DNA of 46,309 nucleotides, taken from the IMG/VR virus record IMGVR_UViG_3300046535_000750, positions 1 to 46,309 of that record; one strand, given 5' to 3'. Position 1 is the stretch's first letter; each line of letters starts with the position of its first letter. Of this stretch, positions 966 to 46,309 are shown one piece after another. This stretch comes from a virus. A program made the position numbers and the translations under genes. Below the pieces are notes generated by a model. That model did not search any database. It was given only the letters and a program-made list of their open reading frames with translations, and had not been told where the DNA came from.

Positions 966-966
966 C

Positions 967-5437: not shown

Positions 5438-6570
5438 GCGGGTCAGGCGACGGCGGCGGTGCATCGGGCGGTGACGCAGCGGCTGCTGCGGCTGCGGCTG
5501 CGGCAGGCTACGGCGGTCCGGGAGCGGCTGCGGCTGCGATGGGCTTCGGTACAACTGCGTCACCCGCAAGCACAGGATGGGGCGGACCAAGCACGTCTCC
5601 AGGACAGGCGACTGCCGCTGGCTATGGGTTCGGCAGCGGCATAGGCGGGCCGGGTTCGGCGGGCATGGCGTCAGGCTTCGGCGCGAGCACCACAGGCATG
5701 GGAAGCTTTGGCGGCGGCATGGGAGGCGCTGCGACGGGCTTCGGCGGCAGTAGCGCCACGGGCTCGAGTGTTGGCTACGGCGGCGGCTCATCAAACGCAG
5801 GTACGGGCAACGCGGGCTATGGTGGCGGCGTCGGCGGACAGGGCGGCGTGGGTGTCGGCGGAGTGACCGGCTTCGGCATGGGCGGCGCGGGCTTCGGTGG
5901 CGGCGCTGCGACAGGCGGGGGCGGCGGAACGGCGGCGGGCGGGTCCTCGCCGGGAGTCATGGGCGGTACTGGCGGGCTGGGGTCGGGGCTCAGCACATTT
6001 CAAGGACCAGCGTTTCAAGCGTTGCTGAGAGCGCTTCTCGGGCAGCAACAGGCGGGGCAACAAGGACCGCCCGGCTTTCACAATCTCGGTGTGCCGCCCG
6101 GTGTGCTTAGCGGCGTGCAAACGGCTACAACTCCCGTAACGGTGTCCGCGCTTGGCCCGCCGTCTAAAGGCGGTCAGGGGTCGCCCGCACCTGGATACAG
6201 CCCAGCGGTCGTTGCTCAGCTCAACCAGCAGGTTACGAAGCTCTATGGGAATACGCCCGTAGCCAAGGCCGTGCAGCAAGCGATCGCGCAAGCCTTAAGC
6301 ATCGGGCCAGGAGGTATAGGTTCGGACGCAGTTTCGGGCGGGGCAACGGCGCAAGCGCCCGCGACGCCCGCGCAACTCGCGCAAAACCCCGCTGTGCAGA
6401 ACTATGAGAATCAAGTGGCGATGCGTGGCTCGCCGGCTCCTGGCTATAGCGCCGCGCCTGTCGGCGTCGCCCCCGTTGCGCCCGCGACGCCCGCACAACT
6501 CGCGGCGAACCCGGCAGTGCAGAACTATGAGAACCAGGTTGCGATGGCGCGTGGGCGCCGGCCCGCATGA
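5434..6570 (+). CDS. Gly/Ala-rich virion-associated protein with C-terminal repeats
   Basis: This is a 378-aa protein. The first 190 residues are almost entirely Gly, Ala, Ser and Thr, with recurring GFG, GYGG and GGMG units. The C-terminal half has Gln/Pro-rich helices and an imperfect duplicated unit, ATPAQLAxNPAVQNYENQVAM, occurring twice. The ATGA overlap with the large internal virion protein suggests a coupled virion component. I know of no defined family, and the composition hinders homology searching. It could be an unstructured linker, a chaperone for ejection proteins or an ejected protein itself. Confidence 0.6.
   Translation: MSGSGDGGGASGGDAAAAAAAAAAGYGGPGAAAAAMGFGTTASPASTGWGGPSTSPGQATAAGYGFGSGIGGPGSAGMASGFGASTTGMGSFGGGMGGAATGFGGSSATGSSVGYGGGSSNAGTGNAGYGGGVGGQGGVGVGGVTGFGMGGAGFGGGAATGGGGGTAAGGSSPGVMGGTGGLGSGLSTFQGPAFQALLRALLGQQQAGQQGPPGFHNLGVPPGVLSGVQTATTPVTVSALGPPSKGGQGSPAPGYSPAVVAQLNQQVTKLYGNTPVAKAVQQAIAQALSIGPGGIGSDAVSGGATAQAPATPAQLAQNPAVQNYENQVAMRGSPAPGYSAAPVGVAPVAPATPAQLAANPAVQNYENQVAMARGRRPA
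6356..6546 (+). repeat. In-gene duplicated 68-bp unit
   Basis: Two near-identical stretches, about 6356-6423 and 6479-6546, both encode the ATPAQLAxNPAVQNYENQVAM unit. They are separated by a linker encoding GSPAPGYS-type sequence, a motif that also appears near 6181. Differences are mostly silent, so the protein repeat appears to be under selection. Confidence 0.75.
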
Positions 6571-7895
6571 GATTGCTGATCGTTGACCCCGCGGGTATGG
6601 CGCTCGACTTCTCGTACCGTGCGAAGCAGGCCGGCCATCACGTCAAACACTTCATCCGCCCAGACCTTAAGACCGAGCATATCGGCAAGGGATTTGTCGA
6701 CGTCGTGCGCGAGTTTCAGCCGTTCATGGAGTGGGCAGACTTGGTGTTCTGCTCCGACAACATAAAATACCTTCGAGACCTCGACGCGTACCGAGAGCGT
6801 GGCGTACCGATCATCGGCCCTTCGCAAGAGACAGCGCGCTGGGAGCAGGACCGGACTTGCGGCATAGAGATTCTAAAGAAGTGCGGCATCGATTGTCCGC
6901 CATACGAAGAGTTCAATAATTACGATAAAGCCATCGCTTACGTCAAAAAACGGAATACCCGGCTCGTCAGCAAGCCGAGCGGGGATGACGACAAGTCACT
7001 CTCCTACGTCGCCAAGACGCCCGCCGACATGGTCTATATGCTGGAGCGCTGGAAGAGAAATAATAAGCTCAAAGGCGAGTTCATCCTGCAAGACTTTATT
7101 GAAGGCGTTGAGATGGGCGTGGGCGGGTGGTTCGGCCCGCACGGGTTCAATGCAGGGTGGGAGGAAAACTTCGAGTTCAAGAAGCTCATGGATGGAGACA
7201 TGGGAGTAGCGACTGGCGAGCAGGGCACGGTCATGCGCTACGTTCGGCGCTCCAAACTCGCCAGGAAGGTGCTCGAACCCCTGACCGATCTGCTCGCTGC
7301 GGCGAACTATGTCGGCGATATCGACGTGAATTGCATCATAGACGATAAGGGTACGCCTTGGCCTTTAGAGTTTACAATGAGACCCGGCTGGCCTACCTTC
7401 AACATCGAACAAGAACTTCGCCAAGGTGATCCAGTCGAATGGTTAGCGATGCTGGCGGAAGGCCAGGACGCCCGCAATATCTTAATGGATACGATAGCGA
7501 TCGGCGTCGTTCTCTCCATTCCCGACTATCCGTACTCCCAACTAACGAGGAAGGAAGTGCTGGGAGTGCCGATCTATGGCCTGACCCCGCAGCTTCAGAA
7601 GCACGTCCATTTCTGCGAGGTGATGCAGGGCAAAGCGCCAGTGGACCGCGACGGCGCCGTAGTCGAAGAGCCGATCCCGGTGACGGCGGGCGACTACGTG
7701 CTGGTGGTGAGCGCGACGGGGCCGACGGTCTACGACGCGAAGCAGACCGCATACCGACGTCTGAAGCGTTTGATGTTGCCCAACTCCCCGATGTACCGGA
7801 CGGACATTGGCGACAGGCTCTCGAAACAGCTACCGAAAATTCAATCGCACGGTTTCGCGATGGGGATGGAGTTTTCGACGGACCCAGCGCCCTAG
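6567..7895 (+). CDS. ATP-grasp enzyme, PurD (phosphoribosylamine-glycine ligase)-like
   Basis: This is a 442-aa protein with an N-terminal Rossmann-like start (MRLLIVDPAGMALDFSYRA). A central ATP-grasp core follows: KPSGDDDKSLSY, then ILQDFIEGVEMGVGGWF, then DIDVNCIIDDKGTPWPLEF with TMRPGWPTF. The order and spacing match the PurD/carboxylate-amine ligase superfamily. In classical enzymes the last motif is E-x-N with N as a metal ligand. Here it reads E-F-T, so activity or substrate may differ. It would join a carboxylate to an amine with ATP in the cytoplasm. The gene sits at the end of the virion operon with an ATGA overlap, away from any nucleotide-metabolism genes, so substrate and role are unclear. 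Confidence 0.75.
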   Translation: MRLLIVDPAGMALDFSYRAKQAGHHVKHFIRPDLKTEHIGKGFVDVVREFQPFMEWADLVFCSDNIKYLRDLDAYRERGVPIIGPSQETARWEQDRTCGIEILKKCGIDCPPYEEFNNYDKAIAYVKKRNTRLVSKPSGDDDKSLSYVAKTPADMVYMLERWKRNNKLKGEFILQDFIEGVEMGVGGWFGPHGFNAGWEENFEFKKLMDGDMGVATGEQGTVMRYVRRSKLARKVLEPLTDLLAAANYVGDIDVNCIIDDKGTPWPLEFTMRPGWPTFNIEQELRQGDPVEWLAMLAEGQDARNILMDTIAIGVVLSIPDYPYSQLTRKEVLGVPIYGLTPQLQKHVHFCEVMQGKAPVDRDGAVVEEPIPVTAGDYVLVVSATGPTVYDAKQTAYRRLKRLMLPNSPMYRTDIGDRLSKQLPKIQSHGFAMGMEFSTDPAP

Positions 7896-7936
7896 AGGCT
7901 CTGACCGACGAAGCGCTCGTCGTCACCTACGAGCAC

Positions 7937-8146
7937 ATGAAGCGAACCGGCCCGCTCGATGAGGATCAAGCGCGCACCGAGCGAATTCGACAAAACGCCG
8001 CGAAGATGGCGCTAAACGCTCAGCTGCGTGTTAACGAGCATCGGCTGAAAAAGTCGCACGACGACTCGAAGCTGGCTGTGATCATGGCGAAGATGTGGGA
8101 GGTTCGTAAGCAGCTGGAGCTAGAGGGGCACGTTCTACCCGAGTGA
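7937..8146 (+). CDS. Small charged helical protein; start uncertain
   Basis: The reading frame ending at 8146 encodes a very charged helix-rich protein. From the only nearby ATG (7937) it is 69 aa. The frame stays protein-like for another dozen codons upstream (ALEALTDEALVVTYEH), reaching back to the end of the ATP-grasp gene. No ATG, GTG or TTG is available there, only a CTG at 7901. I see no convincing ribosome binding site for either start. Translation may reinitiate after the ATP-grasp stop, or a frameshift may join the two. Function unknown. Confidence 0.5.
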   Translation: MKRTGPLDEDQARTERIRQNAAKMALNAQLRVNEHRLKKSHDDSKLAVIMAKMWEVRKQLELEGHVLPE

Positions 8147-8196
8147 TCAATTTTGTGTGACGCAGCGCACATTAAAACACTGAGAGGTGTGTTAAC

Positions 8197-8547
8197 ATGC
8201 GCGATACAACCTCGAAGCGGTTGCATTGGCTCCCCCATTATGTGGAGAGGACATTGCACTACGGTCCAAATTACAGGTATGCTCGTCATCTCAGCGGCTT
8301 GAGACGGGTTATGGATACCGTGGAAGCTACAGGCGATGCGATCAAAGCCTCTGCCGTTCTAACCGCAGTGCTAGTTGTCATGCTCGCGCTCACCACTGGC
8401 ATGGTCGGGTGGCTGTTCCTTAATACGGTCACGCATGGTGAAGTGATTCAGCGCTTGGAAAGTCAACAGGACTGGCAGAACGCCCGCTTGGCTCGGCTCG
8501 AAAAGCGACTGGATGATCTTATCGCGGTGGAGCAGCAACGTCGCTGA
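8197..8547 (+). CDS. Small membrane protein, one TM helix plus coiled coil
   Basis: This is a 116-aa protein. A basic, aromatic N-terminal segment (1-40) precedes a strong hydrophobic helix (about 50-78, KASAVLTAVLVVMLALTT onward). A charged coiled-coil tail follows (about 82-116). A GAGAGG-type ribosome binding site lies upstream of the ATG. It is the last gene of the rightward arm, and its final 29 bases overlap the 3' end of the convergent primase gene. It may act in the membrane late in infection (lysis or superinfection control), but nothing in the sequence fixes a role. Confidence 0.65.
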   Translation: MRDTTSKRLHWLPHYVERTLHYGPNYRYARHLSGLRRVMDTVEATGDAIKASAVLTAVLVVMLALTTGMVGWLFLNTVTHGEVIQRLESQQDWQNARLARLEKRLDDLIAVEQQRR

Positions 8548-21960: not shown

Positions 21961-22112
21961 CATGTGGCCGGCAATCCTGCCGGTGACCCGGCTGCTGACA
22001 TGTTGTCGGCAATCGGTATGGTTTGATCCGATACTTGGAACATTCATTCCCCCTACGTTGACAATCACTCACTGACTTGACCGTGGCTCTCCGCAGGGTC
22101 ACGGTCCCCTTC

Positions 22113-24098
22113 ATGGCCTCAGATCAAGAGATACTCATCCAGAAGCTGGTCAGTTCGCCGTTGACCGCGCATGGTTTATTTTTCGGCGAGCGACATTCGG
22201 TAGCGTCTCCCAAGTTTCATGCGAGCATCATCGATGACTGGCACAGTCAGCGACCCAAGGTTCTCACTCTTGCCTTTCGGGGCGCTGCTAAAAGTACACT
22301 TGCTGAGGAGGCGATCACAGTCATCGCCGCGCTCGGTCAGACCCGCAACTGCGTCATCCTTGGCGAGTCTGAGGCGAGAGCTGCTGAGCGGTTGCGTTCG
22401 ATCAAGCACAATTTCGAGGCCAACGATTTCATCGAAGGCGCGCTTCATGTCGGCCCTGGAGACATCTGGACCGACACCCGATGCACGCTGACCAACGGCG
22501 TAATCATCCAGGCGTATGGACGCTACCAATCGCTGCGTGGAGTGAAGCACCTTGACCAGCGTCCCGATCTTATCTTCATGGACGATTTGGAGGATAAGGA
22601 GAGCGTGTCTACACCGGAGGCTCGTCATAAGACGCGCCAATGGTACACAAGTACGGTTGTTCCGGCGCTTGCCGTGGGCGGACGCATGCGTATGGCGGCG
22701 ACGCCCTTACATCCTGAAGCGCTGGCAGTCACGCTTGGCAAGACGTCGCAGTGGGTCCAGCGGCTCTATCCGATAATTTACAAGGGAGACGAAGGCGAAT
22801 GGGTAGCGACGTGGCCTGCGATGTATCCGGTCGAGTGGGCGCTGGCCAAGCAACTCGAGATGGAGGAAGTCGGACAGGGCGAAGACTTCGTGCAGGAGTA
22901 CCTGTGTCAAGCGACCGATCCCGCCTCACAGACTTTTACCAGCGATATGTTTCGCGTCGCCCCACGTGCTCGCTCTTATCACGCGGTCTATGCAGTGTAC
23001 GATCCTGCCCGAACTACGAACAAGAGTTCGGCGACAACGGGGAAAGCTGTTTGCTCTTGGATTGGCTCGAAGCTCATCGTGTGGGAGAGTTTCGCGCGAA
23101 AGATGATGCCCGATGAAATCGTCAAAGACATCTTCGATACCGACGAGCGATATTCTCCGGTGGCGATCGGATTTGAAGAAAATGGACTCAATGAATGGGC
23201 GCTCCAGCCAATCCGCGCTGAGCAGCTCCGAAGGGGATACTCAATACCGTTGCGCCCACTGTCTGCGCCGAAAGGGAAGCTCGACTTCATTCGAGGTCTT
23301 CAGCCATATTTCAAAGCTGGGGAAGTTGAATTTGCGGTTGACATGCCTGAATTGCGGCAGCAACTATTGGGCTTCCCCACCGGACTGATCGATGCGCCGA
23401 ACGCGCTCGCCTACATGCTCAAGATGAAATCTGGAGTGCCGATCTATGAAAACTTTAGGGAGGAAATTATCTCCAGCGACATACGCTGCACTGCTCGAAC
23501 TCCGGTGTACCTTGTCCTCAACACAGATGGACGTGTCACTACAGGACAACTTGTCCAGATGGCTAGAGGACGCTTACAGGTCTTGTCTGACTGGCTCAAC
23601 GAAGGCGACGCCGGAACCGCCTTGCCAGACATCATCCAATCTGCCAGATTAGAGCTGCCTACGGCCAGCCAGGGCCTCGGGGCGCAGGCCGTTGCTCCTT
23701 CCAGCTTGCGCCCCATCGCTCCACGGGATCACTTCGATGAATATTCGACCCTCGCGCTGCGTGCTGTGGCCAAACGATCGAAGCTCATCGTTCAGCGAGG
23801 CGGAGATATCGTTGCAGGTCGAGAGGAACTTCGTGCGCTCCTTCGACGCTTTGTTCACGACGAGCCCGCTATCGTCGTACACCCCCGCGCCCGCTGGACG
23901 CTGCGCGCGCTGGCCGGTGGCTACTCCCGCCAGCTCGACAGCCCGGACCCCACTCCCGGCGCCTACGCGGTCCTGATGGCGGGGCTGGAGAGCTTCGCGG
24001 CCCTGCTCAGGAGCGGACTGGACGACGTTGACAGTCAGCCCGCTTATGCTTACACCGAGGATGGTCGCAAATATATTTCGGCTTTAGCGAGGTCGTGA
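22113..24098 (+). CDS. terL: Terminase large subunit
   Basis: This is a 661-aa packaging motor from ATG 22113. TTG 22077 and GTG 22083 are in frame but, like the ATG, lack a clear ribosome binding site. The ATPase has RGAAKST as Walker A about 55 residues from the start and DLIFMDD as Walker B near 152-158. The nuclease follows with VYDPA, GFEENG and DAPNALAYML as its acidic motifs. The long C-terminal region after about residue 430 carries no motif I recognise. It cuts and pumps DNA into the procapsid through the portal. No small terminase gene was recognised beside it. It is the first gene of the right arm. Confidence 0.92.
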   Translation: MASDQEILIQKLVSSPLTAHGLFFGERHSVASPKFHASIIDDWHSQRPKVLTLAFRGAAKSTLAEEAITVIAALGQTRNCVILGESEARAAERLRSIKHNFEANDFIEGALHVGPGDIWTDTRCTLTNGVIIQAYGRYQSLRGVKHLDQRPDLIFMDDLEDKESVSTPEARHKTRQWYTSTVVPALAVGGRMRMAATPLHPEALAVTLGKTSQWVQRLYPIIYKGDEGEWVATWPAMYPVEWALAKQLEMEEVGQGEDFVQEYLCQATDPASQTFTSDMFRVAPRARSYHAVYAVYDPARTTNKSSATTGKAVCSWIGSKLIVWESFARKMMPDEIVKDIFDTDERYSPVAIGFEENGLNEWALQPIRAEQLRRGYSIPLRPLSAPKGKLDFIRGLQPYFKAGEVEFAVDMPELRQQLLGFPTGLIDAPNALAYMLKMKSGVPIYENFREEIISSDIRCTARTPVYLVLNTDGRVTTGQLVQMARGRLQVLSDWLNEGDAGTALPDIIQSARLELPTASQGLGAQAVAPSSLRPIAPRDHFDEYSTLALRAVAKRSKLIVQRGGDIVAGREELRALLRRFVHDEPAIVVHPRARWTLRALAGGYSRQLDSPDPTPGAYAVLMAGLESFAALLRSGLDDVDSQPAYAYTEDGRKYISALARS

Positions 24099-25058: not shown

Positions 25059-25373
25059 ATGCGCTGGCTACCGCTCGCCCTGATCTTTTGCGCGAGTGGG
25101 GCGCTCGCGCAAATCCCCAATAAAATATTGTTGACGTCGCAAGTCGTCTGCGGCGCGACCGCAACACTGGTCGATGGCGTGCGTAACCGGCACGCGATCA
25201 CGGTCAAGGTCCCGACAGGCGGCGCAGTGACTTACATCGGAGCCGCGGGCGTCAACGCATCGACCGGGCTTGGGATCGATCCGGGCGCGGCGATGACGCT
25301 GCAGCCGTTCTCAGGCGCGCTCTATTGCATCGGCAGCTCGCAGACCGTCCAAGTCATTCAGACGCTGCCATGA
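25059..25373 (+). CDS. Small exported beta protein
   Basis: This is a 104-aa protein with a signal peptide (MRWLPLALIFCASGALA, cut after Ala). The mature part is beta-rich, with a TYIGAAGVNASTGLGIDPGA segment known from small phage beta domains, and two Cys. First gene of the exported cassette; its stop overlaps the next ATG as ATGA. Confidence 0.65.
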   Translation: MRWLPLALIFCASGALAQIPNKILLTSQVVCGATATLVDGVRNRHAITVKVPTGGAVTYIGAAGVNASTGLGIDPGAAMTLQPFSGALYCIGSSQTVQVIQTLP

Positions 25374-25561
25374 GATGGCTGCTTGCATGTCTAGCGATCG
25401 TCGCCGCGACGGCGGCGCAAGCTGACTACTACACGCCGGCTATAGGCGGTGGCTCTCCGCCTCCTCCTGGCGGTGACGCGGTGCTTATGATCAATGGGCT
25501 CGACAATGTACTGAACGTAGGCGGATTAAACATATGTCTCGCAGCTACCCTTACCTGCTAG
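25370..25561 (+). CDS. Very small exported protein
   Basis: This is a 63-aa protein from ATG 25370. A signal peptide ([18 protein letters not shown]) precedes a Gly/Pro linker and two Cys near the end ([10 protein letters not shown]). Its first residues match those of the gene before it, suggesting duplication of the export signal. It overlaps the next gene by 28 bases. Function unknown. Confidence 0.55.
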
Positions 25562-27561
25562 CTTTTGCGGCGCTGGTCGCTTCGGCGAGCAGCTCTCTCG
25601 CTGCGTCGTCGAACGTCAACAGCATGACGGCTTCCGGCGCGATCACCGGGGCACAGCTGTTCTATTGCCCGGTCGGCGCGACCACCGACTTGAAATGCAC
25701 CGCGGCGCAAGTGGCTGCGTTTAACTATTCGCTCATGACCGGCGATTGCACGGCTACAGGCGTCGGCGGAATGACCTGCACCGCAACCAGCGGGACGGCG
25801 TTCGGCGCGCTGGCCACGCTCACCCCTGGAACGGGCGTCGCGACCGCGCTCGCGATCAACGTCGGCTCGGCGGGCGCGCTCGTCACCTTCAACGGCGCGG
25901 GCGGCACGCCGACCAGCTTGACCCTGACCAATGCAACCGGCCTGCCGCGCACTAGCATTACCGGGCTTGGAACGGGTGTCGCCACCGCGCTCGGCGTGAA
26001 TATCGGCGCAGCTGGAGCTCCAGTACTGTTCAATGGCGCGGGAGGCACGCCAACGAGCTTGGTGCTGACCAGCGCTACCGGTCTGCCGCTGACAACCGGC
26101 GTGACGGGCAATCTGCCGGTCGGCAACCTCAATTCGGGTACGAGCGCGTCAAACACGACGTTCTGGCGCGGCGACGGCTCTTGGGCAACGCCTAGCGTTT
26201 CGGGCGGCGTGACCCAGGTATCAACGACTTGTCCCGCAACCGGGCCGTCTACTGGTGCGGTGGTGCTGACTAATACGTTGCAAATCGTAAACAAGGCCGC
26301 AAACTATACGTCTCTGGCGTCTGAGTGCGGCGCAGTTATCACGTTCACGATCACCAGTCCGGCCACGTTCACACTGATTGCGCCTGTCACGGCCGGTTCA
26401 GGTTTTGGTTATGCGAGTGTCAACAACATCGCAACCAGTACGGCGAATTTAACTATTAGTCCTCCATCCGGTACAATCAACGGAGCAACGTCGCTGATCC
26501 TGCCGCCCGGTTCGTCGCTCGCGGTCTGGACCGATGGCGCGAACTACTTCACTTCAGGTGGGGTTGGCTCCGACATCGTCGTGTTTACGGCGACTGGCAC
26601 CTGGACGCCTAATCCCTCGATTTCGCGCATGCAGATCGGTTGCCTTGGCGGAGGCGGCGGAGGCGGCGGGGGCGGCGCAGTAACCGGTACATCGATCATT
26701 TACGGCGGCGGCGCGGGCGCAGGCGGATCGTCTAAGGCTATGAGCTATTCGGTCGCGCAGCTTCGATCGCTCTATGCGACCACGGTTGCGGTGACGATCG
26801 GTACGACGGCGTCGGGTGGTACGGGCTCGTCGGCCAGTTCGGGCACTTCGGGGGGCGTAGGGGGTAATTCTTCGGTCGGCTCCGGCACGAGCTTCCTTTG
26901 CAACGCATACGGCGGCGGGGGCGGGGGCGGCGGCGGCGCAGCGGGTTCAGCTGGCGGGGGCGGCGGGGGAGCAATCAGTGCCGGCACCGCGGGCACAGCG
27001 AACAGCGTAACTCCGGGTAACGCGGGAACGGGCGGCAACTCAGCGGGTACGGCTTCGGCGCTCACCACTCAGGCTCTCGCGTGTTGGGGTCCTGGTGGAA
27101 CGGGCGGTACGACAACGACGACTGCGGGGCGCGCGGTGGGTCCAGGCGGCTTCTGCACACAGGCCGGTGCGTCGGCTCCGGGTGTCGCTGCTTCGGGCGC
27201 GGCGCAAGTGGGCATAGCCACGCTCGCTCCGTATGAGTTCACCGGCAATAGCTCCCTCTACGTCGGCGGTTCGGCGGGCGCGATCGCAGGTAACGGCGGC
27301 AACGGAGGCTTGGGACAGTGGTCTGACGGGACGTTCGTCTTTGCCGGCGCTGGCCTGATCGGGGGAGGTGGTGGCGGCTCGGGCGGCTCATGCTTAGGCA
27401 CAGGCACAGGCTGCACGCCGGGTAACGGCGGCGCTGGTGGGTTTGGTTCAGGCGGCGGCGGAGGCGGTGGTTGCCAGGACCCGTCGGCGGCATGCACGGG
27501 CGGCACGGGCGGCGCAGGCGGCGCTCCGGTCGTTGAAATCATCGAGTACAACACCCCATGA
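25534..27561 (+). CDS. Glycine-rich fibre-like protein with signal peptide
   Basis: This is a 675-aa protein. Residues 1-24 form a signal peptide ending SLAAS. Residues about 85-215 hold two Thr/Gly-rich repeats (LxTGxGVATAL..[10 protein letters not shown]) ending in FWRGDGSW, a motif I associate with trimeric tail fibres. From about 350 on there is a glycine-rich domain. The mature part has 14 Cys. It is probably a host-binding fibre or adhesin. Export to the periplasm would be unusual for a tail fibre. Confidence 0.7.
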
Positions 27562-30410
27562 AGCGGCTGCTGTTAGGACTATTGCTAGCGGTCCTATTGG
27601 CTAGCCCCGCCGCTGCGCGAGCTGTGCAGCATCATAACTTCGGCGCGCGAACCAATGCGACTGCGCCGGGGCCCTTGAGCGCGCTCTCCGTATATCCCGG
27701 TTGTGTGCAGCCGACCCCGGCAGCGTGGAGCAAGAAATGGTATTTTGCGGTGTCGCCGCTCGACGGCAAGACGCCTGCGGACTGGACCACGGCGGGCGTG
27801 CCGACGGCGCAGCAAGGCGATATCAATCATCCGCTCTACCCGATTCAAAATTTGTTCAACTTTGGTTCGTTCCCGTTTACGACGGCGACGGGATGGACGA
27901 CGCCGCTTGACGGACTCAACATTTATTTTGGCCCTCCGGGCAACACGATCCACCAGTCGTTTACGACGCTCTCAGCGATGCAAGCAGGTGACACAGGGCA
28001 CCTTCATTTGTGGCCGGGGGACGAAGTTATTCTTCGCGGGCATACGGGGGTCAATGCGGGGGTATGGAGTATAAACGGGGTTCCCGGTACGGCGTCTCCG
28101 ATTGGCGGCGCCGCTAGCGCCGGGCTAGACGAAGTCGACGACGCAGGCCATCCGATCCATGTGTATATCCACAGTGATCCTGGCTTCCCACGCCCAATAT
28201 TCACGACCATAAATATGAATAGTACCGTGGGTATTATCGTACAGGGAATGAATGCGTATAATACATATGACCCGTCGGCCACGGCTAGTATACGAACTTT
28301 TAATTGGTCTACTGCGCAGCCTACAAACGGTATGACGCTGAATATTAATGAGCATGTTATAACGTGGAAGACTGCTCCTACACTGACTGACGATGTGTTG
28401 ATTGATCCAAAAGGTTATCAGCGAACGTTGATTCGGACGGCGGAGAGCTTTCAAAATAGCACTGATCCGCTTGTGAACGCGTTCACCATAACTAGTCAGC
28501 AGAGCAATTTTACGCTGATTAAGACCTACGCGGCCAACCTTTCAAATGGCGATACGCTTAATGTTAACGGCGTTACTTGGACTTTTGTCACGGGTGCGCC
28601 TGTCGGCAATCAGGTTCAGATCGGGGCCAGCCTTTCGGCGACGCTCACGGCTGCGGTGACGGCTTTCAAAGCCAGCGCGCTCACGGCAATGAAGGTGTTC
28701 ACTGTCTACGGCAGCACGGCGACGACACTGACGTTCGCTTATGCCCCTGCTGCGCAGCCAGCCAACGGCACGACACTCGGGCTCAACGGTTCTACCTGGA
28801 CGTTCGTGAACACGCTGACCGTGGGCAACCAAATTCAGATCAGTCCGACCAACACAACAGCGACCATCTGGGAAACGCTGGGCAACGCGATTTTGGCGTT
28901 CGATGCTGCGGGCAGTCCTTGGGGAACGGGCGTCACCTACACGACCAACAATGCTGGTTTGTCGACAATCGCCACGACACTCGGGGTACCGGGTATTTAT
29001 AAGACCCAATCGACGTTTCCCCAATTCGATGTCGACTCGCCGATCAATTTGTCAACCTTCTCGCTGGGGGGCTTCTATGGGATTCGCACATCGGCAAGCG
29101 CTATAGGACCGATGCATGACAACATTATCGACGACGTTTTCATCACGTCGTGGGACGGCGTGATGACGATGTCGCCGTCGTCCGTGCCGCGCGATCTTTA
29201 CCCGGTGACGGGCTCGCTCGGCATAAGTCTAACGACGGGCAATGTTGTCCCCGGCAATGTTGGCGGCCCGTGGAACGCAATGGACTGGACCATCATCCCC
29301 AATCTAACAGGTGTATCGCTCAACGGGGTTAGCACGTGCGTAGTCGTGGGCGGCTTTTGCCAAGGTGATAATACAGCCGACTTTAATTCTTGTCAGACGG
29401 TAAGTAATACTTCGGTTTGGTATACAGGATTGGGCATGGGTGTATCGAATATGCACGATACGCTTATGAAGAACGTAGCGGTAGCATATCAAGGCGACGA
29501 TCAATATGATAACTATTCTTCGTGGGATATGACATGGGATAGTTTCAAAGCTTATAACCCGCTTAATAATGGCTTGGCGTTCCACCCGGACTTTATGCAA
29601 GGAGGCATTACCGGGATTAATGCGGGAACAATGTGGAACAGCGTCTTTAACGCGGGGCAGCTTTATTCTGCAACTGACAATACGATTATCAATGATCCCG
29701 GCTGGACGGACATGAATGGGGGTACGAAACCATTAAGCGGCGGTCCGCAAGGGATTAGCGCTTCTGGCGCGTTCAATGGTATTCCTATCCATAAAAATGT
29801 AACTATCACTAATTCCCTCCTTATCACGACGGCTTGTCTTGGTATTACGGTTGAATCTCACCCGTCAGGCACTGTAGATATCGAGAATAATACGCTCATC
29901 TGGCCCGGTAAGCCGTCTAGTGGTGTAAGTATTTGTTCGACTTCTCCCGATATTACGCCGCATGTAAGCCCCGTCAGGACGCTTACTGAAACCATTATCA
30001 TGCGAAATAATGTCGCGCACTCGTACTCGGTCGGCGGTGGCGTCGTGACTTGCCCACTAGGGTCAAATGCGGTGTTTAGCAATAACCGTATCGTCGAGAG
30101 CAACGCCGGTGGAACGTATCATTTTACCACGTCCGCTTATTGCCCTGATGGGGCCGCGCCAGGATCAGCTGTTGTTATCGGGGCTCCACCGTCGTCTATT
30201 TTTGGTGGGGGCATTACCTACGCAGGGTCAGGCGATCCGAGCTTGTCTTTCGTCGCATACCCAGCTTCTAATCTCTTGGGGGATGGGAAGGTTCTAAACC
30301 TCAATCCGCTTGCGGCGGGGCCGCTTGACGGCACAGGGACAACCAACGCGCTTTGCTGTAATGTCTTAGGCGCGACGCGCGTACCGCCGCCCAACATCGG
30401 GGCATACTGA
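27558..30410 (+). CDS. Large exported beta-helix protein (tailspike-like)
   Basis: This is a 950-aa protein. The signal peptide is [19 protein letters not shown]. Residues about 255-480 contain three copies of a module with NGxTWTFV and GNQIQI motifs. The C-terminal half reads like a right-handed beta-helix (short strands with Asn turns: [22 protein letters not shown]), as in tailspikes and polysaccharide lyases. No lyase active site can be named. It has 10 Cys after the leader. Parts of the gene are AT-richer than its neighbours, a sign of swapping. It would bind or cut a surface glycan. ATGA overlap upstream. Confidence 0.7.
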
Positions 30411-30550
30411 TGTTTCAATTTATCATCGCGGCGATGCTATTTTTTGCCCGCGCTGGAACGGTAGTTCCGGTCGTGCCGCCTACGTGCACCAACGTGCTTA
30501 ATTTCTCCGTTGCGTGCAACTCACAGTACGTTCCCGTGGTGCTCCGATGA
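30410..30550 (+). CDS. 46-residue protein with hydrophobic leader
   Basis: This is a small frame whose ATG overlaps the upstream stop by one base (TGATG) and whose stop overlaps the next ATG as ATGA. It begins [15 protein letters not shown], then a Pro/Val linker and two Cys (PTCTN, SVACNS). The coupling on both sides supports a real gene. Leader or membrane anchor uncertain. Confidence 0.55.
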   Translation: MFQFIIAAMLFFARAGTVVPVVPPTCTNVLNFSVACNSQYVPVVLR

Positions 30551-32259
30551 AACGGCTTCTCGCACTTTTTGCGCTGTTATCGGTTGTTCCGGCTTACGCT
30601 GACCAGATCGGCGTCACGGTGGGAACAGGCAAAAACATTGGTGCGGCGCTTGATGGTAGTAGCAATGACTTCCCCGGCTCGGTGATTTGCGGCGGCGCGA
30701 CGGGAACGGTCTTCGCAACCGTCACACAGTGCGCCGTCGTCAACAGTTCGGGGCAGCTGCTCACGCTCTCGACCCTCACCGGCACGGTTCCACTTCCTAC
30801 CGGCGCGGCGACCGAGACCACACTTGGGTCTGTCCTGACTGCGATCGGCACGCCTATGCAGGCGACTGGCGGCACAGTTACCGCGGCACAAGCGACTGCG
30901 GCGAGCTTAAAAGCCCAAGTCTCTACGGTTTCTGGGGGCATTGCATCGGGTTCGGTTGCGTCTGGCGCTGTTGCGGCGGGTGCGCTGGCGGCGGGCGCGG
31001 GCGTAGATGGCTGGGATTTGACTCAAGGCGCTAAGGCCGATGCGGCGTGGGTATCGGGCAGCGGGTCGATTGTTTCAATTCTGAAGACGATCGCGGGAGC
31101 AGGGGCTAGCTCTTCGATCACGGGGTGGGGCGGATCGACTCTTGCTGCGGCGACGGCGCCGGGGACGCCTCAGACCACGGGCCTTGTTCCGACATTCAAC
31201 GTCGGCAACACAAACGCCAACGGCTCAGCCACGAGCGCCAACTCTTCGCCGGTTGTCATCGCTTCGGATCAAGTTGCAGTAGCGGTGAAGGCAGCTAGTG
31301 GAACCTTCGCGAGTGGCTCCATTGCATCTGGCGCATTGGCGGCTGGTTCTATCTCCAGCGGCGCGGCGGTAAGCGGCGCTTACGCGACGGGCGCTATCGC
31401 TGACTTGGCCGTGGCGCAAGGCGCAACGACATCCGGCAAGGTCGGCAATATGGGACTTGCGGCCGTTACGACGGCGGCGCCCACCTATACGACCGGCCAA
31501 CTCGATCCGCTGTCTCTTGATACCGCGGGTAGCCTCCGCATCAACTGCACCACGGGATGTTCGGCTTCAACAAGTATCACTAGTTGGGGCGGCGGCACGC
31601 TCGGCGCGATGGCGAACTACGGCACGTCTCCCGGTGCGGTGCTTGTCCCCGGCGTTAATGCCGCTGTCACCGCCTTGCCTAATGTCACGATCGGCACGAA
31701 CGCGGCGCTCGTTGCAGGCGCGGCGCTCATAGGCAAGGTTGGCATTGACCAAACCACAGTTGGCACGACCAACGCCGTCTCCCTGGCTCAGATCGGAGCA
31801 GTCACGACACTGACAGGCGCGGGCGCGAGCGGTACAGGCGCGCAGCGGGTGACAGTTTCGCAAGATGCAACGACCGTCGCAGGCGCTGCGCCCAATGATC
31901 CATGTATGTTCGTGGCTAAGACGCCGTTTGCATTTTCTAGCTCGACCGGTGAGTTTCAACTCGTCGCGCCGAGTGGTTCGTTACACGTCTATATTTGTTC
32001 GATCACATTAACCTCGACCGCCGCCGACTCGATCAGTCTTGTCGGCGGGACCGGCGCGACATGCACGACCGGTACGCCAGCCGCAATGTTGGGCTCGACA
32101 ACTGCTGCAAACGGTATGGCGCTTGCAGCAAACGCCGGCTGGGCTGTTGGCTCGGGGAGCGGGACCATCTATCGCACGATCACGGCAGGGCATGGCGTAT
32201 GCGTCTTGCAAAGTGGAACGACGCTCGTGGCAGGCGGTGGAACCTTCGTCCAACAATAG
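30547..32259 (+). CDS. Fibre-like protein with ASGA repeats and signal peptide
   Basis: This is a 570-aa protein from ATG 30547. The signal peptide is MKRLLALFALLSVVPAYA. Residues about 130-290 carry repeated ASGSVASGAVAAGAL and SGSIASGALAAGS units, typical of repetitive phage fibre shafts. The C-terminal 130 residues form a beta domain holding four of the eight Cys. It is probably a long fibre with a distal binding domain. An export signal on such a protein is the odd point. Coupled by ATGA. Confidence 0.7.
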   Translation: MKRLLALFALLSVVPAYADQIGVTVGTGKNIGAALDGSSNDFPGSVICGGATGTVFATVTQCAVVNSSGQLLTLSTLTGTVPLPTGAATETTLGSVLTAIGTPMQATGGTVTAAQATAASLKAQVSTVSGGIASGSVASGAVAAGALAAGAGVDGWDLTQGAKADAAWVSGSGSIVSILKTIAGAGASSSITGWGGSTLAAATAPGTPQTTGLVPTFNVGNTNANGSATSANSSPVVIASDQVAVAVKAASGTFASGSIASGALAAGSISSGAAVSGAYATGAIADLAVAQGATTSGKVGNMGLAAVTTAAPTYTTGQLDPLSLDTAGSLRINCTTGCSASTSITSWGGGTLGAMANYGTSPGAVLVPGVNAAVTALPNVTIGTNAALVAGAALIGKVGIDQTTVGTTNAVSLAQIGAVTTLTGAGASGTGAQRVTVSQDATTVAGAAPNDPCMFVAKTPFAFSSSTGEFQLVAPSGSLHVYICSITLTSTAADSISLVGGTGATCTTGTPAAMLGSTTAANGMALAANAGWAVGSGSGTIYRTITAGHGVCVLQSGTTLVAGGGTFVQQ

Positions 32260-32268
32260 GCGGATAAA

Positions 32269-32544
32269 ATGGCCCTTACAGTTACTCAAGGCTTGAATGT
32301 CGGGCAAGTCGCGCAAAATCATGTGGCTGCCGGCGCGTTCATTACAAAGCTTCAGGCTGCGGTTGCCGCCAATGTGCAAGTGACCGCGATACAGCTTACG
32401 TGTCTCGGGCTCCCTCCGGGGCAACCTAACATCGGCATGGACGTTGTTCTCAGCGCGGCGGACAGCGCGGTTTTGTGTAATCAGCTGGTGACTTTGCTCG
32501 GCCAACTCCAGGCCGAATATAACGCGACGCTTGCCGCATCCTAA
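32269..32544 (+). CDS. Small cytoplasmic-type protein inside the fibre cassette
   Basis: This is a 91-aa protein without a signal peptide. It is helical, with AAVAANVQVTAIQLTCLGLP and a C-terminal amphipathic helix. It is the only gene in the cassette with no leader. It could be a chaperone or assembly factor for the fibres. The next gene starts on its stop (TAATG). Confidence 0.6.
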   Translation: MALTVTQGLNVGQVAQNHVAAGAFITKLQAAVAANVQVTAIQLTCLGLPPGQPNIGMDVVLSAADSAVLCNQLVTLLGQLQAEYNATLAAS

Positions 32545-33620
32545 TGCTGAAGCGGTTTCTTCTCGCTTTGCTGTTCTGTTTAGGGGCAGCGCCAGTTTTT
32601 GCCGCCTGTCCTGGCGGCTGGGTGGTGGTTGGCGCAACTTGCCAGCTCATCATTACGACGACCGGCTCGTTGCAAGCTTGGACTGTGCCCGCCACGTGGA
32701 CCACGACAAACACGATTGAGCTTATCGCGGGGGGCGGCGGCGGAGCCAACGGAGCTGCTAATTCGGACGGTGCTGGCGGCGGTGAGTATCGCATCCTAAC
32801 CAACACGGCATCTTTAACCCCAAGCGCAACGGCGTACGCGTCAGTTGGTGTCGGGGGGACATCGGCTTCGGCGGGCGTTAAGGGCGGCTTCTCAGCGGTC
32901 TGTACGGGCAATACAACTTGCACTTGCGCCACAGGCACTTGCGCCGGGTCGACGGCTTCCACCTATGGCGCTCAGGTGCTGGTCGCTGCGTGTGGTGGCA
33001 ATGGCGGTCCTGGAAATGGAACTACGGGTTTAGGCGGCAGCTGCGGCACTGGCGGCGTGAGTCACGCTGGCGGCAATGGGTCGGCTAATACGGGCGCTGG
33101 AGCTACCACTTCGGTCGCAGGCGGCGGCGGCGCGGGCGGACCAAAGGGCGCTGGTTGCGCAGGCGGTAGCGGAACTGGGGGCGCGGCTGGTGGCGGAGGC
33201 GGCGGCGCGGGCGGCAATGGCGCAGGCACGGCGTGCTCCGTTGGTGGCGCAGCAGGAATAAATGGCGGCGCTGGGGGCAATAATTGGGCCGGAACTGGCG
33301 GCGGAGCTAGTGGCAATGCGGGCGCGGGCGGCATTGGTACAAATGGTGGCGGTGGCGGCGGCGGCGATGGCGCTAATGGCGGCGCGGGGGGCGCGGGTAC
33401 TGGGGAATGGCAAAGCATTGCTGGACCGGGCGGCGGCGGCGGAGGTTCGGGCGCGGGCGGCACCGGCGCCGCGGGTGGCCTTTATGGCGGCGGCAGCGGC
33501 GCATCAGCCTCTGGCTCCACAGCTGGGGCTGGGGCAGCGGGGATTGTGGTAATCACTTTTACACCTGGAGGCGCCGCTGCTCCAGCTTGTAAGAGAATGA
33601 TGATGGGCGTCGGATGCTGA
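32544..33620 (+). CDS. Exported glycine-rich protein
   Basis: This is a 358-aa protein with signal peptide MLKRFLLALLFCLGAAPVFA. A short Cys-containing domain (CPGGWVVVGATC) precedes a glycine-rich region (about 60-340) and a Cys-ending C-terminus. The mature part has 12 Cys. The WTVPATWT entry into the Gly-rich part matches the Gly-rich domain of the 675-aa protein (GTWTPNPS..). Probably a fibre tip or surface-binding protein. Confidence 0.65.
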   Translation: MLKRFLLALLFCLGAAPVFAACPGGWVVVGATCQLIITTTGSLQAWTVPATWTTTNTIELIAGGGGGANGAANSDGAGGGEYRILTNTASLTPSATAYASVGVGGTSASAGVKGGFSAVCTGNTTCTCATGTCAGSTASTYGAQVLVAACGGNGGPGNGTTGLGGSCGTGGVSHAGGNGSANTGAGATTSVAGGGGAGGPKGAGCAGGSGTGGAAGGGGGGAGGNGAGTACSVGGAAGINGGAGGNNWAGTGGGASGNAGAGGIGTNGGGGGGGDGANGGAGGAGTGEWQSIAGPGGGGGGSGAGGTGAAGGLYGGGSGASASGSTAGAGAAGIVVITFTPGGAAAPACKRMMMGVGC

Positions 33621-35278
33621 AGCGCGTAGCAGGTTTCTTATTTTTGATCATGCTCGCATGGTCGGCTAACGCTGCATTTTTTCAGGGGTCTACATTCAAG
33701 CCAGCGAGTGGCGGCGGCACGGCAGCTTTCACGGCGCTGCATACGTTTTTCATGAATCCTTCGGGGAACGACGCTTGTAATGGTACGGTGGCTACTTTGG
33801 GGTCATCGGGGAATTGCGCTTGGTTAACACCGGATCATGCTGGCCTTGTCTGTGGCGACGTGATCTTGGCGGCGTCGGGCAACTACGCGCCGTTTAGTGT
33901 CAACCACAATCCGGGAACGTGCCCATCGGTTTCCGGTGGTCTGACGGCAAGTCCAGGGGGAATCTATTTCGTTACGGTGCTCTGCGCAGGTGCGTCGGTT
34001 GGAGACTGCACTGTTAACTGGACGGCTACGGGAGGGATTGATCCAGGCATAGGCATTGGTGGTAATAATTGGGCTTTTGAAGGGTGGGAAGGGTCTGGCG
34101 GCTATTCGCTTTCAGCAGGCGGGGCGCCGTTTGTAATCGACGGCACAGTTGCTGGAGCTATCCGACATCACGTCGCGTTCATCAATGACATATGTATTAA
34201 CAATGCAAGCTGCGCCTTCGTGCAAGACAACGGCATCGCTGGGACCAATCTTGGTGGTGACTACTGGGCGATGATTGGATTGTTGGCGCAGAACTCCGGG
34301 GGGCGGTGCGACGGCTTCTTTGATGCGGCAATTGATATCATCGGCATAACTAATTTTGATACCGTTGCGGGCACTCATATTATTGCTGACGGTAACTTCT
34401 CTTACAATGTTAAGCAGCCAGTCGGTTGCAACGCCACAGACGGCGAAGCAATGATGACGGACACGTTAGACTTTCATAATTACACGCAGAAGATTGTCAT
34501 ACGTAATAGTATCCTGGCCGGAGCTACGCGCTACGGGATGCAGATGTTCTTCCAGAATAATTTTCAAAATGCGGTAACTATTGATTTTTACAACAATACC
34601 CTATACGGAAACAACACTACGCCAGCAAACGTTGTTGCGGCTTGTGATAATGCCGCAGGTGAAATAAATATTATTTCATCGTCGGGCACTATGCCGTGGC
34701 ATATTAATATTACAAATAATCTAGCTCAGAGTATTTTGGCGCAATGTCCTGCTGCTGGGCCTCGGCCTCTATATGGTTTGCTTGTCGCTACAACGTTGGG
34801 CGGCACCTTTGACCCTAACTTGGTGATAGGCGGTACAGGCACGCAAAACTATATAAAGGGACTTGCAACTTCGTGCGTAGGCAGTTTTTGTGATAGCGGC
34901 AGTACGCCTATTAGCGCGATAACGTTTGACACAATAAATAATCTTGGGACGAATATTTACGCTAGCCCGAATTTTAATAACCCAAGTGATTTCGTCACAA
35001 ATCGCTATGGAGTTCCAAATTGTTCCGGCTTTATAAGCACGACTGCTTGCATGGGCTGGGTTTTTGCTACGCAAACTGCAACTAATCCTTCTGTCATTTT
35101 TGATATGACGCCCACAACTGCTGGAGCTATTGGGAAGGGTTACCAGCCGCCATTAACTTCTTGTGCTTCATCTGACCCAGACTACCCGACTTGGCTTAAG
35201 GGGATCGTCTATCTCCATTGGAACGGGTCTTCGCTCACAGAGAACTCAGACCTTATCACCAAGCCTTGCGGGATGTGA
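33614..35278 (+). CDS. Exported beta-helix protein, Cys-rich
   Basis: This is a 554-aa protein with signal peptide MLKRVAGFLFLIMLAWSANA. It reads as a pectate-lyase-like right-handed beta-helix (IVIRNSILAG, TIDFYNNTLYG, INITNNLAQS). It has 18 Cys, many in pairs. The second half is clearly AT-richer than the genome. It may bind or cut a host surface glycan. No catalytic set could be named. It overlaps the previous gene by seven bases and is the last of the cassette. Confidence 0.7.
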   Translation: MLKRVAGFLFLIMLAWSANAAFFQGSTFKPASGGGTAAFTALHTFFMNPSGNDACNGTVATLGSSGNCAWLTPDHAGLVCGDVILAASGNYAPFSVNHNPGTCPSVSGGLTASPGGIYFVTVLCAGASVGDCTVNWTATGGIDPGIGIGGNNWAFEGWEGSGGYSLSAGGAPFVIDGTVAGAIRHHVAFINDICINNASCAFVQDNGIAGTNLGGDYWAMIGLLAQNSGGRCDGFFDAAIDIIGITNFDTVAGTHIIADGNFSYNVKQPVGCNATDGEAMMTDTLDFHNYTQKIVIRNSILAGATRYGMQMFFQNNFQNAVTIDFYNNTLYGNNTTPANVVAACDNAAGEINIISSSGTMPWHINITNNLAQSILAQCPAAGPRPLYGLLVATTLGGTFDPNLVIGGTGTQNYIKGLATSCVGSFCDSGSTPISAITFDTINNLGTNIYASPNFNNPSDFVTNRYGVPNCSGFISTTACMGWVFATQTATNPSVIFDMTPTTAGAIGKGYQPPLTSCASSDPDYPTWLKGIVYLHWNGSSLTENSDLITKPCGM

Positions 35279-35291
35279 TACAGCAGGGGCC

Positions 35292-37436
35292 ATGAGCAAG
35301 AAGCCCTCGAAGATCAAGAGCGACCCCGGCAAAACCCGCGAGCCTACGCCGCAAGAGGAAAAGCTTGACCGGGCCGAAGAGCTGTCCACCAAGGAAGACG
35401 TGCGCGAGGCGCTGCTCGATATCTTCAAGGACGTGGAGAAGGGCTTCCTGCAGCAGGCCGATCGTTCCGACAACATCGCCGATTATTGGGACTGCTACAA
35501 CTGCGTGTTGGGCAACCAGCAGTTCTACAACGGCACGTCCAAAATCTATGTCCCGATCGTTTACAACGCGGTCAACGCGCGCAAGACTCGGTTCGTCAAC
35601 CAGCTCTTCCCGCAGAACGGGCGCTACGTCGAAGTGACGACTGGCGACGGCACGCTGCCGCAAACCGAAATGGCGCTGCTCGAGCACTATGTGCGGCAGG
35701 ACAAGCTTCGGTCGCGTGTCGCGCCTGCACTGGCTAAGAACTCCGACATCGAAGGCCAGATGACTATCCAGATTGAGTGGGCGGAGAAGCGTCGGCACGT
35801 CGTCTACAAGACGAAGGTGAAGCCCGAAATCGAAGAGGGTATCGCGGATATCGAAGACGTTGATGACATCGAAGAGGAAGAGATCGTCAACGGCGGCCCG
35901 CACGTCAATGTCATTGCCGACAGCGATTTCCTCGTGCTTCCCTTCACCGCCGATTCGCTCGATCAGGCGCTCGCCGATGGCGGCAGCGTCACCACGCTCT
36001 GCCGCTGGTCCAAGGCAAAGCTCGCGCGCAAGATCAAGGAAAAGGAAATCGATACCGAAGCCGGCGATAACATGCTGGAGGAAATGAAGCAGCAAGAAAA
36101 AGAGACGGAGCGCTATGACAAGCAGAAGGATATGGTGGACGCGGCGGGGATCAAAGGCGACGGACGCGGCAAGTTCGCCCTTATTTATCGTACTTGGACC
36201 ATGCTCACAATTGACGGTGAGCGCCGCCTATGCCTCACGTATTATGGGGGTAAAGACAGGGTCTTGTCATGTAAGCGTAACCCCTATTGGTCCGACCGAA
36301 TTGATATTATTTCAGCCCCCTGTGACAAGGTAGACGGTTCGTTTAAGGGTGTGTCTAGGATCAAGTTTGTTGCCGGCCTCCAGTATCAAGCCAACGATGC
36401 GTGCAATGAAGGCATGGACAGCGCGGCTTATGCGTTAATGCCGATCGTCATGACTGACCCTGAGAAGAATCCTAAAGTTGGGAGTATGGTGCTTGCACTT
36501 GCTGCGGTCTGGGAGACTAGTCCAAACGATACCCAATTCGCGAAGTTCCCTGCGCTATGGAAAGATGCGTTGGAGATTGTCGCGAACTGCAAGTCTGAAA
36601 TATTCCAGTCGCTTAGTGTTAACCCGGCGCAGATTACGCAGGCGGGCAATCCGAAGTCTAAGAAGCCCAATCAAGCGGAAATCGCCAATGAGCAACAGAT
36701 CGATCTTCTGACGACGGCGGATGTTGTTACGATCATGGAAGACGAGATGTTCTCGCCCATGCTCGCCTTCATGCTTGAGCTAGACCACCAGTACCGCGAT
36801 AAAGACCTTACTGTTCGCGAGTATGGCGAGACGGGTATGAAGACAAACATGCAGCAAATACCGCTGTTGTCTTTGAGCAAGCTCTATCAGTTCCGTTGGT
36901 TCGGCGTGGAGAACGCGCGTAACGCGCAGCAGATACAGCAGCAGATCGGTATGCTGAATGTTCTCCAGCATGTCCCTCCACAATTATATCAGGGTTACAG
37001 GTTTAACGCTGGCCCTGTAATGTCGCAGATGATAGAGAACTCTTTCGGGCCGCGACTCGGGCCGCTTACATTTGTGGACATGCGGCAGGAGCTTTCTTTC
37101 GAGCCTGCGGAGGAAGACAAGGTTTTAGTTGAAGGCTTCGTTACTCCGGTTCACCCACAAGACGATCACATGGCGCATATCCAAGATCACATGATGGTGG
37201 CTAAGGCGACGGGCGATCCGTCAGGGGTCTTCCGTGTTCATATCATGGCGCACCTTCAGGCGCTTCAACAGCAGCAGGCTCAGACGGCTCCAGGCGGTCC
37301 TCCGCAGCCTCCAGGCGGCGGGGGCAGCGGTCCCCGGCCCGGTGCGGCTCCAGCCGCCCAGCGGCCCGCGCAGCAGCCTCCTGGTGCGATCCATACTGAT
37401 CAGATGAAAGACCCACAGGTGGCGCCGCGCGCATGA
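35292..37436 (+). CDS. Portal protein
   Basis: This is a 714-aa portal from ATG 35292 (frame open further up but only as a shadow of the beta-helix gene). The N-terminus is charged. An acidic insert (about 180-200) follows YDxCYNCV-type and QLFPQNGRY segments. The middle has the wing/stem-like region around FKGVSRIKFVAGLQYQANDACNE, and the last 70 residues are Pro/Gln-rich. This is the usual portal of podoviruses with an N4-gp56-like capsid. It forms the ring through which DNA passes. Codon use shifts to AT-richer between about 36180 and 37130. Confidence 0.85.
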   Translation: MSKKPSKIKSDPGKTREPTPQEEKLDRAEELSTKEDVREALLDIFKDVEKGFLQQADRSDNIADYWDCYNCVLGNQQFYNGTSKIYVPIVYNAVNARKTRFVNQLFPQNGRYVEVTTGDGTLPQTEMALLEHYVRQDKLRSRVAPALAKNSDIEGQMTIQIEWAEKRRHVVYKTKVKPEIEEGIADIEDVDDIEEEEIVNGGPHVNVIADSDFLVLPFTADSLDQALADGGSVTTLCRWSKAKLARKIKEKEIDTEAGDNMLEEMKQQEKETERYDKQKDMVDAAGIKGDGRGKFALIYRTWTMLTIDGERRLCLTYYGGKDRVLSCKRNPYWSDRIDIISAPCDKVDGSFKGVSRIKFVAGLQYQANDACNEGMDSAAYALMPIVMTDPEKNPKVGSMVLALAAVWETSPNDTQFAKFPALWKDALEIVANCKSEIFQSLSVNPAQITQAGNPKSKKPNQAEIANEQQIDLLTTADVVTIMEDEMFSPMLAFMLELDHQYRDKDLTVREYGETGMKTNMQQIPLLSLSKLYQFRWFGVENARNAQQIQQQIGMLNVLQHVPPQLYQGYRFNAGPVMSQMIENSFGPRLGPLTFVDMRQELSFEPAEEDKVLVEGFVTPVHPQDDHMAHIQDHMMVAKATGDPSGVFRVHIMAHLQALQQQQAQTAPGGPPQPPGGGGSGPRPGAAPAAQRPAQQPPGAIHTDQMKDPQVAPRA

Positions 37437-38227
37437 CCATACCCGCTGTCGCTCTCTCTTCGATCCAGCACTACATCGCCAAGGGCATCTCGAAGGATGT
37501 CGCGGTCGGGATTGTCGCTTGTCTCTACTACGAGTCGAAGCTCAACCCCGGCGCGCAGGGCTCGCAGTCAAGTGAGACACCCGGTGTGCTCAACCCGCGC
37601 GGAGCGTACGGGATCGCCTCATGGAACGGGCCGCGCCAGAAGGCGCTTGCGGACTTTGCGATAAAGAAGGTTGAGAGCCCCGGCCTGCTGAACACGCAGC
37701 TCGACTTCGTGCTGACCGAGTGTGCGAACTCTTACCCCGGGGTGTGGCACGCAATCCAGACGTATACGAGCTACCAGAGCTTCATACCCGTCTTCGTGAA
37801 CAACTACGAGATACCTGCCGACAAACCAAAAGAAATCGCCGCGGCGCTCGCCTACGCTGACGAGTGGTATCCGCTGGTCACTGCTCCCGCTGCTCCCGCC
37901 GCGCCGCCCGTCGTTACGCCTACGCCTGTCCCCACCGTCCCCATAGGAGTTGGACCAATGGACGCCGCCCTGCTTGCGCAGCTTGCGCCGATCATCGAAG
38001 CCCTTGCCGCGGGCTTGTTCCGCGCGCTCATCTCTCAGCTCTCCGCCGCTCCAGGTGCTGCGTCGGCAGGGGCGCCGGTTGTTGCGGCTCCCCCCGCGCA
38101 GCCGGCGCTTGATTTAGGCGCGCTCGCCAATGCGCTCGTGCCGATGCTCACGTCGCAGCTCAGCTCGATCCTGCCCAACCTGATCGCTGCTGAAGTGGCG
38201 AAGCTTAACCTCGGACCCAAGCCATGA
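37433..38227 (+). CDS. Endolysin, phage-tail-lysozyme type
   Basis: This is a 264-aa protein. Residues about 8-145 are a phage-tail-lysozyme (Phage_lysozyme2-like) domain. ACLYYESKLNPGA holds the likely catalytic Glu34, and RGAYGIASWNGPRQKAL is the conserved substrate-binding stretch. A Pro/Ala linker (about 148-170) leads to amphipathic helices that could act on membranes. It would degrade peptidoglycan at lysis. No signal peptide, so it needs a holin. It overlaps portal and holin genes by ATGA. Confidence 0.82.
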   Translation: MTIPAVALSSIQHYIAKGISKDVAVGIVACLYYESKLNPGAQGSQSSETPGVLNPRGAYGIASWNGPRQKALADFAIKKVESPGLLNTQLDFVLTECANSYPGVWHAIQTYTSYQSFIPVFVNNYEIPADKPKEIAAALAYADEWYPLVTAPAAPAAPPVVTPTPVPTVPIGVGPMDAALLAQLAPIIEALAAGLFRALISQLSAAPGAASAGAPVVAAPPAQPALDLGALANALVPMLTSQLSSILPNLIAAEVAKLNLGPKP

Positions 38228-46102: not shown

Positions 46103-46309
46103 TGGGCGGCAGTAGCGGCAATAGCAGCACAACGTCGGCGGGCGGTCCAGCTCCCATACCGCTGCTCAATGCCGAGAACCAGATCTTTACGCCGCTCGGC
46201 TATCCCAACACGGGGGGCGCGGCAAACAATGCTTTCAGTGGCGCAGGCGGTCTGACGGGGCCGGCGAACGCCGCTTATGGCTCCGGTCAAAACGCGCTTC
46301 AGGCCGGCC
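45884..46309. repeat. Terminal overlap repeat, right copy
   Basis: This is the partner of bases 1-426, about 98.8 % identical. Removing one copy gives a closed map of about 45,883 bp in which the virion operon runs unbroken from the GNAT-like gene into the downstream tail protein. The mostly synonymous differences argue against sequencing error. Confidence 0.93.
46102..46309 (+). CDS. Tail / internal virion protein, 5' fragment (duplicate end)
   Basis: This is the first 69 codons of the gene that is complete at 219-965, cut by the window end. Only one silent difference. Not a second gene. Confidence 0.9.
   Translation, partial: MGGSSGNSSTTSAGGPAPIPLLNAENQIFTPLGYPNTGGAANNAFSGAGGLTGPANAAYGSGQNALQAG

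Follow-up and report, generated by a model that had tools for sequence, protein, structure and literature searches.

Predicted Sec signal peptides on a fibre-like gene cassette of a podovirus and on fibres of its relatives: possible maturation of phage fibres outside the cytoplasm

Assembly of tailed phages is generally assumed to take place entirely in the cytoplasm. What, then, might be the role of a run of fibre-like genes with predicted export signals, lying between the terminase and portal genes of a tailed phage? We addressed this question in a stretch of 46309 bases from an IMG/VR virus record, hereafter the window. Its structural genes are of podovirus type: they code for terminase, portal and capsid, for tail tubular-like proteins and for large proteins of internal virion type, the last two labels being presumed from gene order. 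A block of replication genes runs leftward and includes a family A DNA polymerase and an SNF2-type helicase. Positions 300-426 are repeated exactly at 46183-46309 (127 bp), with the first 299 bases outside the overlap; the genome is therefore probably circularly permuted or terminally redundant, with a variant end. Among the neighbours of the internal virion genes is a phosphoribosylglycinamide synthetase-like (ATP-grasp) gene at 6567-7895. The phage tail lysozyme domain (PF18013) occurs in two window proteins, the large internal-virion-type protein encoded at 2096-5437 (just below the cut-off) and the product of 37433-38227, which adjoins the portal gene.

The initial annotation had placed nine translationally coupled genes, eight with leaders, between terminase and portal. 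The coordinates, order and position proved right; there are eight genes (A to H), seven of which have a strong predicted Sec signal. In this GC-rich DNA, automatic gene calling missed the starts for C, D and H, which were therefore placed manually. The features are as follows.

22077-24098, plus strand: terminase large subunit, upstream border (PHROG 38, E 1.5e-51)
25059-25373, plus strand: gene A, 104 aa; predicted signal peptide MRWLPLALIFCASGALA (25059-25109); mature part with 2 Cys
25370-25561, plus strand: gene B, 63 aa; predicted signal peptide of 18 residues (25370-25423); mature part with 2 Cys
25534-27561, plus strand: gene C, 675 aa; predicted signal peptide (25534-25602); fibre-like repeats and a Gly-rich region; 14 Cys
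27558-30410, plus strand: gene D, 950 aa; predicted signal peptide of 22 residues (27558-27623); mature part with 10 Cys
30547-32259, plus strand: gene E, 570 aa; predicted signal peptide MKRLLALFALLSVVPAYA (30547-30600); Ala/Gly/Ser repeats; 8 Cys
32269-32544, plus strand: gene F, 91 aa; no signal peptide according to the caller; 2 Cys
32544-33620, plus strand: gene G, 358 aa; predicted signal peptide MLKRFLLALLFCLGAAPVFA (32544-32603); Gly-rich; mature part with 12 Cys
33614-35278, plus strand: gene H, 554 aa; predicted signal peptide MLKRVAGFLFLIMLAWSANA (33614-33673); mature part with 18 Cys
35292-37436, plus strand: portal, downstream border, without signal peptide (family match, signal scan and alignment)

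Genes A and B, and C and D, overlap at ATGA; B and C overlap by 28 nt, F and G by 1 nt and G and H by 7 nt. These overlaps make translational coupling plausible for most of the cassette, but D and E are separated by 136 bp. An assignment as stand-alone lysogenic-conversion genes ('morons') was rejected, as most of the genes overlap or abut from terminase to portal.

Signal peptides were identified using a home-made caller, distinct from SignalP, that combines a hand-written cleavage matrix of the von Heijne type with rules for the n- and h-regions. In a stretch of E. coli K-12, it found 13 of 14 exported proteins. Applied to the window, it detected an n-region, an h-region and an AxA-type site in A, B, C, D, E, G and H, that is, in 7/8 cassette genes. 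An additional automatic call at 33343 was discarded as a spurious ORF within gene G. Wrong start codons, or hydrophobic low-complexity N-termini resembling signal peptides, could in principle yield such a pattern by chance or through annotation; the proteins are rich in Ala and Gly, and their gene starts are predicted. However, the caller scored none of the ~43 other called window genes (Fisher p 7e-8) and returned 0/28 false positives in E. coli. Among 106 protein clusters of the clade, four contained a lipobox and one a Tat-like motif; export by Tat was accordingly rejected.

Exported proteins of Gram-negative bacteria prefer an even number of cysteines (PMC7678975). The Cys count of the mature part is even in all eight cassette proteins (2, 2, 14, 10, 8, 2, 12 and 18 for A to H, respectively), and four window proteins encoded at 219-6570 contain no Cys. 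We extended the count to related genomes after clustering the proteins and removing near-copies. Among clusters with Cys, the number was even in 88/99 signal-bearing clusters (89%) vs 136/331 others (41%; Fisher p 2e-18), and the Cys content was 1.54% and 0.90%, respectively. A test of a 'GDCT...C' hairpin was small and pointed in the same direction: two Cys were present in four signal-bearing cases and in 0/50 signal-less matches, many of the latter being chance matches. As Cys parity makes no use of the leader sequence, it constitutes a separate line of evidence for export and argues against an artefact of the N-termini.

Searches with the portal yielded over 100 related loci. When genomes were searched with the capsid, prophage-like loci were found in Paraburkholderia and other Burkholderiales, and also in metagenome-assembled genomes from other groups. 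Genes A, B and C are present in the nearest relative (L047/G019; terminase 87%) with leaders that are altered yet intact. The terminase-portal gap contains no cassette in most of the first portal relatives. More specifically, the orthologue of A (L047, 12914-13234) has a different yet intact leader, that of B (L047, at 13231) also has a leader, and that of C (G019) aligns from residue 1 on with 72% identity. Signal-bearing fibre-like genes recur in the relatives in the terminase-portal gap, downstream of the portal and downstream of tail tubular B. A signal-bearing protein of at least 150 aa was found in 45 of the 79 loci of at least 12 kb. The leader pattern thus recurs across related soil podoviruses, with a single case in a prophage of Paraburkholderia tropica LMG 22274 (L095), whose leader-bearing protein (7189-8388) has a Gly-rich C-terminus in common with a leader-less P. 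phenoliruptrix protein (58%/209 aa). Given the retention of the pattern in L047 and its recurrence across the clade, we consider a chance or annotation artefact scarcely credible.

Two further observations concern these relatives. A signal-bearing protein of 797 aa with Sortilin/BNR repeats (beta-propeller type) is encoded directly upstream of the portal at L155:7520-9913. In Paraburkholderia-type prophages, the major capsid and scaffold-like proteins have a hydrophobic N-terminal 'LLGLLLPGV'-like stretch in common (L092, L093 and L095 at 9950, L094 at 2855, and the adjoining scaffold-like genes).

The fibre gene adjacent to tail tubular B occurs in leader-bearing and leader-less forms, which allowed a comparison. 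Of its 76 distinct copies, 61 had a predicted signal peptide, 14 had none and one was ambiguous, a 61:14 ratio that is biased towards leaders because the scan was seeded with a leader-bearing query. The N-terminal domain of the fibre is conserved and otherwise alike in the two forms. Counted back from a conserved Pro, the predicted cut comes at a median of 6 residues, and leader-less forms have their initiator Met at 5-9. Since these positions coincide, cutting would restore the ordinary fibre N-terminus. At least two Cys were present in the N-domain of 46/61 leader forms vs 1/14 leader-less forms; the sole exception, in L232, has an N-terminal hydrophobic leader that the caller rejected. Among the leader forms, 15/61 had no Cys in this domain and 0/61 had exactly one, and where there were exactly two, the spacing was 27-28 residues in 43/45. 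Mapped onto a capsid tree built from 24 loci, the presence of a leader switched ~6 times (5-7 in bootstraps). The C-terminal regions also appear alike in L106 and L136, which are leader-less, and L099, which has a leader. In nearly all loci seen, the leader form replaces the leader-less one at the tail locus rather than standing beside it.

These data bear on a second explanation, in which the leaders stay uncleaved and, through their hydrophobicity, anchor the proteins either within the virion or at a membrane. The leaders are indeed hydrophobic, and an uncleaved leader would also yield a membrane-associated protein. However, the predicted cut generates the N-terminus of the signal-less orthologues, the Cys pairs go along with the leader, and a fold model of the N-domain, of good confidence, shows the leader as a helix of its own, ahead of a domain that contains a long helix. 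Anchoring is therefore improbable. The initial annotation had offered two readings, secretion to the envelope and anchoring in the virion; the export on which the former depends gained support, whereas the position of the cut and the Cys pairs disfavour the latter.

Overall, export of the cassette proteins from the cytoplasm is strongly supported at the level of prediction, by signal peptides, Cys parity and comparative evidence together. That the proteins are actually exported and processed is, in our judgement, very likely.

The assignment of the exported proteins as fibres is clearest in the relatives. Their signal-bearing proteins match tail, tail-fibre and collar-fibre families, and they also match a tail fibre of the Burkholderia phage isolate BcepC6B. 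In L140, the PHROG match opens at profile position 2, directly after the signal. Among A to H, only C had a tail-family match, a weak one to PHROG 863 (category tail, E 4e-6). When this gene was used to seed a second family of fibre motifs, the family drifted to low-complexity matches and had too few members. Neither E nor G matched a PHROG or Pfam family, and Pfam yielded nothing in A or C to H. The Gly-rich or repetitive character described earlier for proteins of the cassette is evident in C, E and G. By contrast, the proposed beta-helices were not confirmed for D and H: neither had a Pfam match, a PDB search with them gave no meaningful match, and a single-sequence fold of H was uninformative (pLDDT 31). 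No relatives of D and H were detected in viral contigs, and phage records contained no match for H, D or two proteins of relatives.

The N-domain of the fibre adjacent to tail tubular B is absent from the window, and that family is tied to A-H by analogy and through the weak tail match of gene C. A fibre role for the window proteins is suggested by composition, position and elimination, with weaker homology than that of the relatives' proteins: the cassette sits in the late structural region, and outside it the window contains no other recognisable fibre gene. Whether the mature cassette proteins are virion fibres appears evenly balanced.

The main competing explanation is that the proteins act off the virion, in the periplasm, at the surface or in the medium, as decoys, superinfection blockers or soluble factors that bind or degrade polysaccharides. 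An exported location fits such a function directly, as do the tandem arrangement of fibre-like genes with unrelated C-terminal domains, the Sortilin/BNR-repeat protein of L155 and a weak beta-helix match in L147. However, the exported forms retain a strongly conserved N-terminal fibre domain, the same one as in the signal-less forms, the leader form substitutes for the leader-less one at the tail locus, and removal of the cassette would leave the window with no recognisable fibre. We therefore regard action off the virion as a possible but rather doubtful explanation. The conservation of the fibre N-domain suggests that the exported forms still bind the tail by means of this domain; otherwise, they would be free surface-active proteins. 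For the same reason, a virion role is predicted to be at least as likely as the masking or degrading role originally considered.

Taken together, the data make it fairly probable that the cassette is a podovirus fibre/adhesin module made as Sec preproteins and oxidised in the periplasm. According to this model, the host would be a diderm (Gram-negative, probably proteobacterial) and the late genes would give rise to preproteins that Sec translocates unfolded. After trimming by signal peptidase I, they would acquire disulfides in the periplasm through the host Dsb system. As virions would be assembled and packaged in the cytoplasm, the oxidised fibres would reach them only when the inner membrane breaks at lysis. 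The exported fibres might then attach to virions, leave as free glycan-binding or glycan-degrading proteins, or both. More tentatively, a large clade of tailed phages may mature its host-recognition fibres outside the cytoplasm, as Sec-exported, trimmed and disulfide-locked proteins that join virions at lysis.

On this view, these are tail fibres made by a new route, and there is a real chance that tailed phages here follow a previously undescribed path of assembly. Should export and oxidation of the fibres come first, current ideas on the order of assembly, on what makes fibres stable and on how host Sec and Dsb contribute to phage production would have to be revised, and lysis would itself be an assembly step. 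If the proteins are instead free factors, a large group of soil phages would export sets of fibre-like, possibly glycan-active proteins. The combination of a signal peptide and paired cysteines also provides an easy sequence marker by which to annotate unknown phage fibres.

Searches of open-access papers yielded no description of Sec signals on the fibres of tailed phages, in agreement with the original statement that no described system matches. The closest fibres by position and N-domain to the signal-bearing fibres of the clade are the podovirus fibres adjacent to tail tubular B in Paraburkholderia prophages (L092, L093 and L095) and the BcepC6B fibre; in places, C-terminal domains are also common to the clade's fibres and those next to tail tubular B. 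The signal-less members begin at the fibre domain and are without the Cys pair. The window cassette differs from this family in lying between terminase and portal and in lacking its N-domain. Sec signals occur in other tailed-phage proteins, namely Lom and Bor, of lysogenic conversion, and the spanins, of lysis. T4 RI is a further lysis protein with a signal, according to PMC8385771. These are all single, non-fibre proteins, whereas in the window several fibre-like genes together, within the late structural region, have signals. In passages on Porphyromonas gingivalis phages, signal-peptide genes are described that belong to another host phylum and follow another cleavage rule, and that these passages do not call tail fibres. 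Inovirus pIII is a virion adsorption protein that has a cleavable Sec signal and is disulfide-bonded in the periplasm. Inoviruses are extruded through the membrane, whereas the window phage, as judged from its genes, is tailed and terminase-packaged; a pIII-type assignment was rejected on gene context, terminase, portal, capsid and tail tubular-type genes all being present. As a Sec-exported adsorption protein, pIII is the nearest idea to the window cassette.
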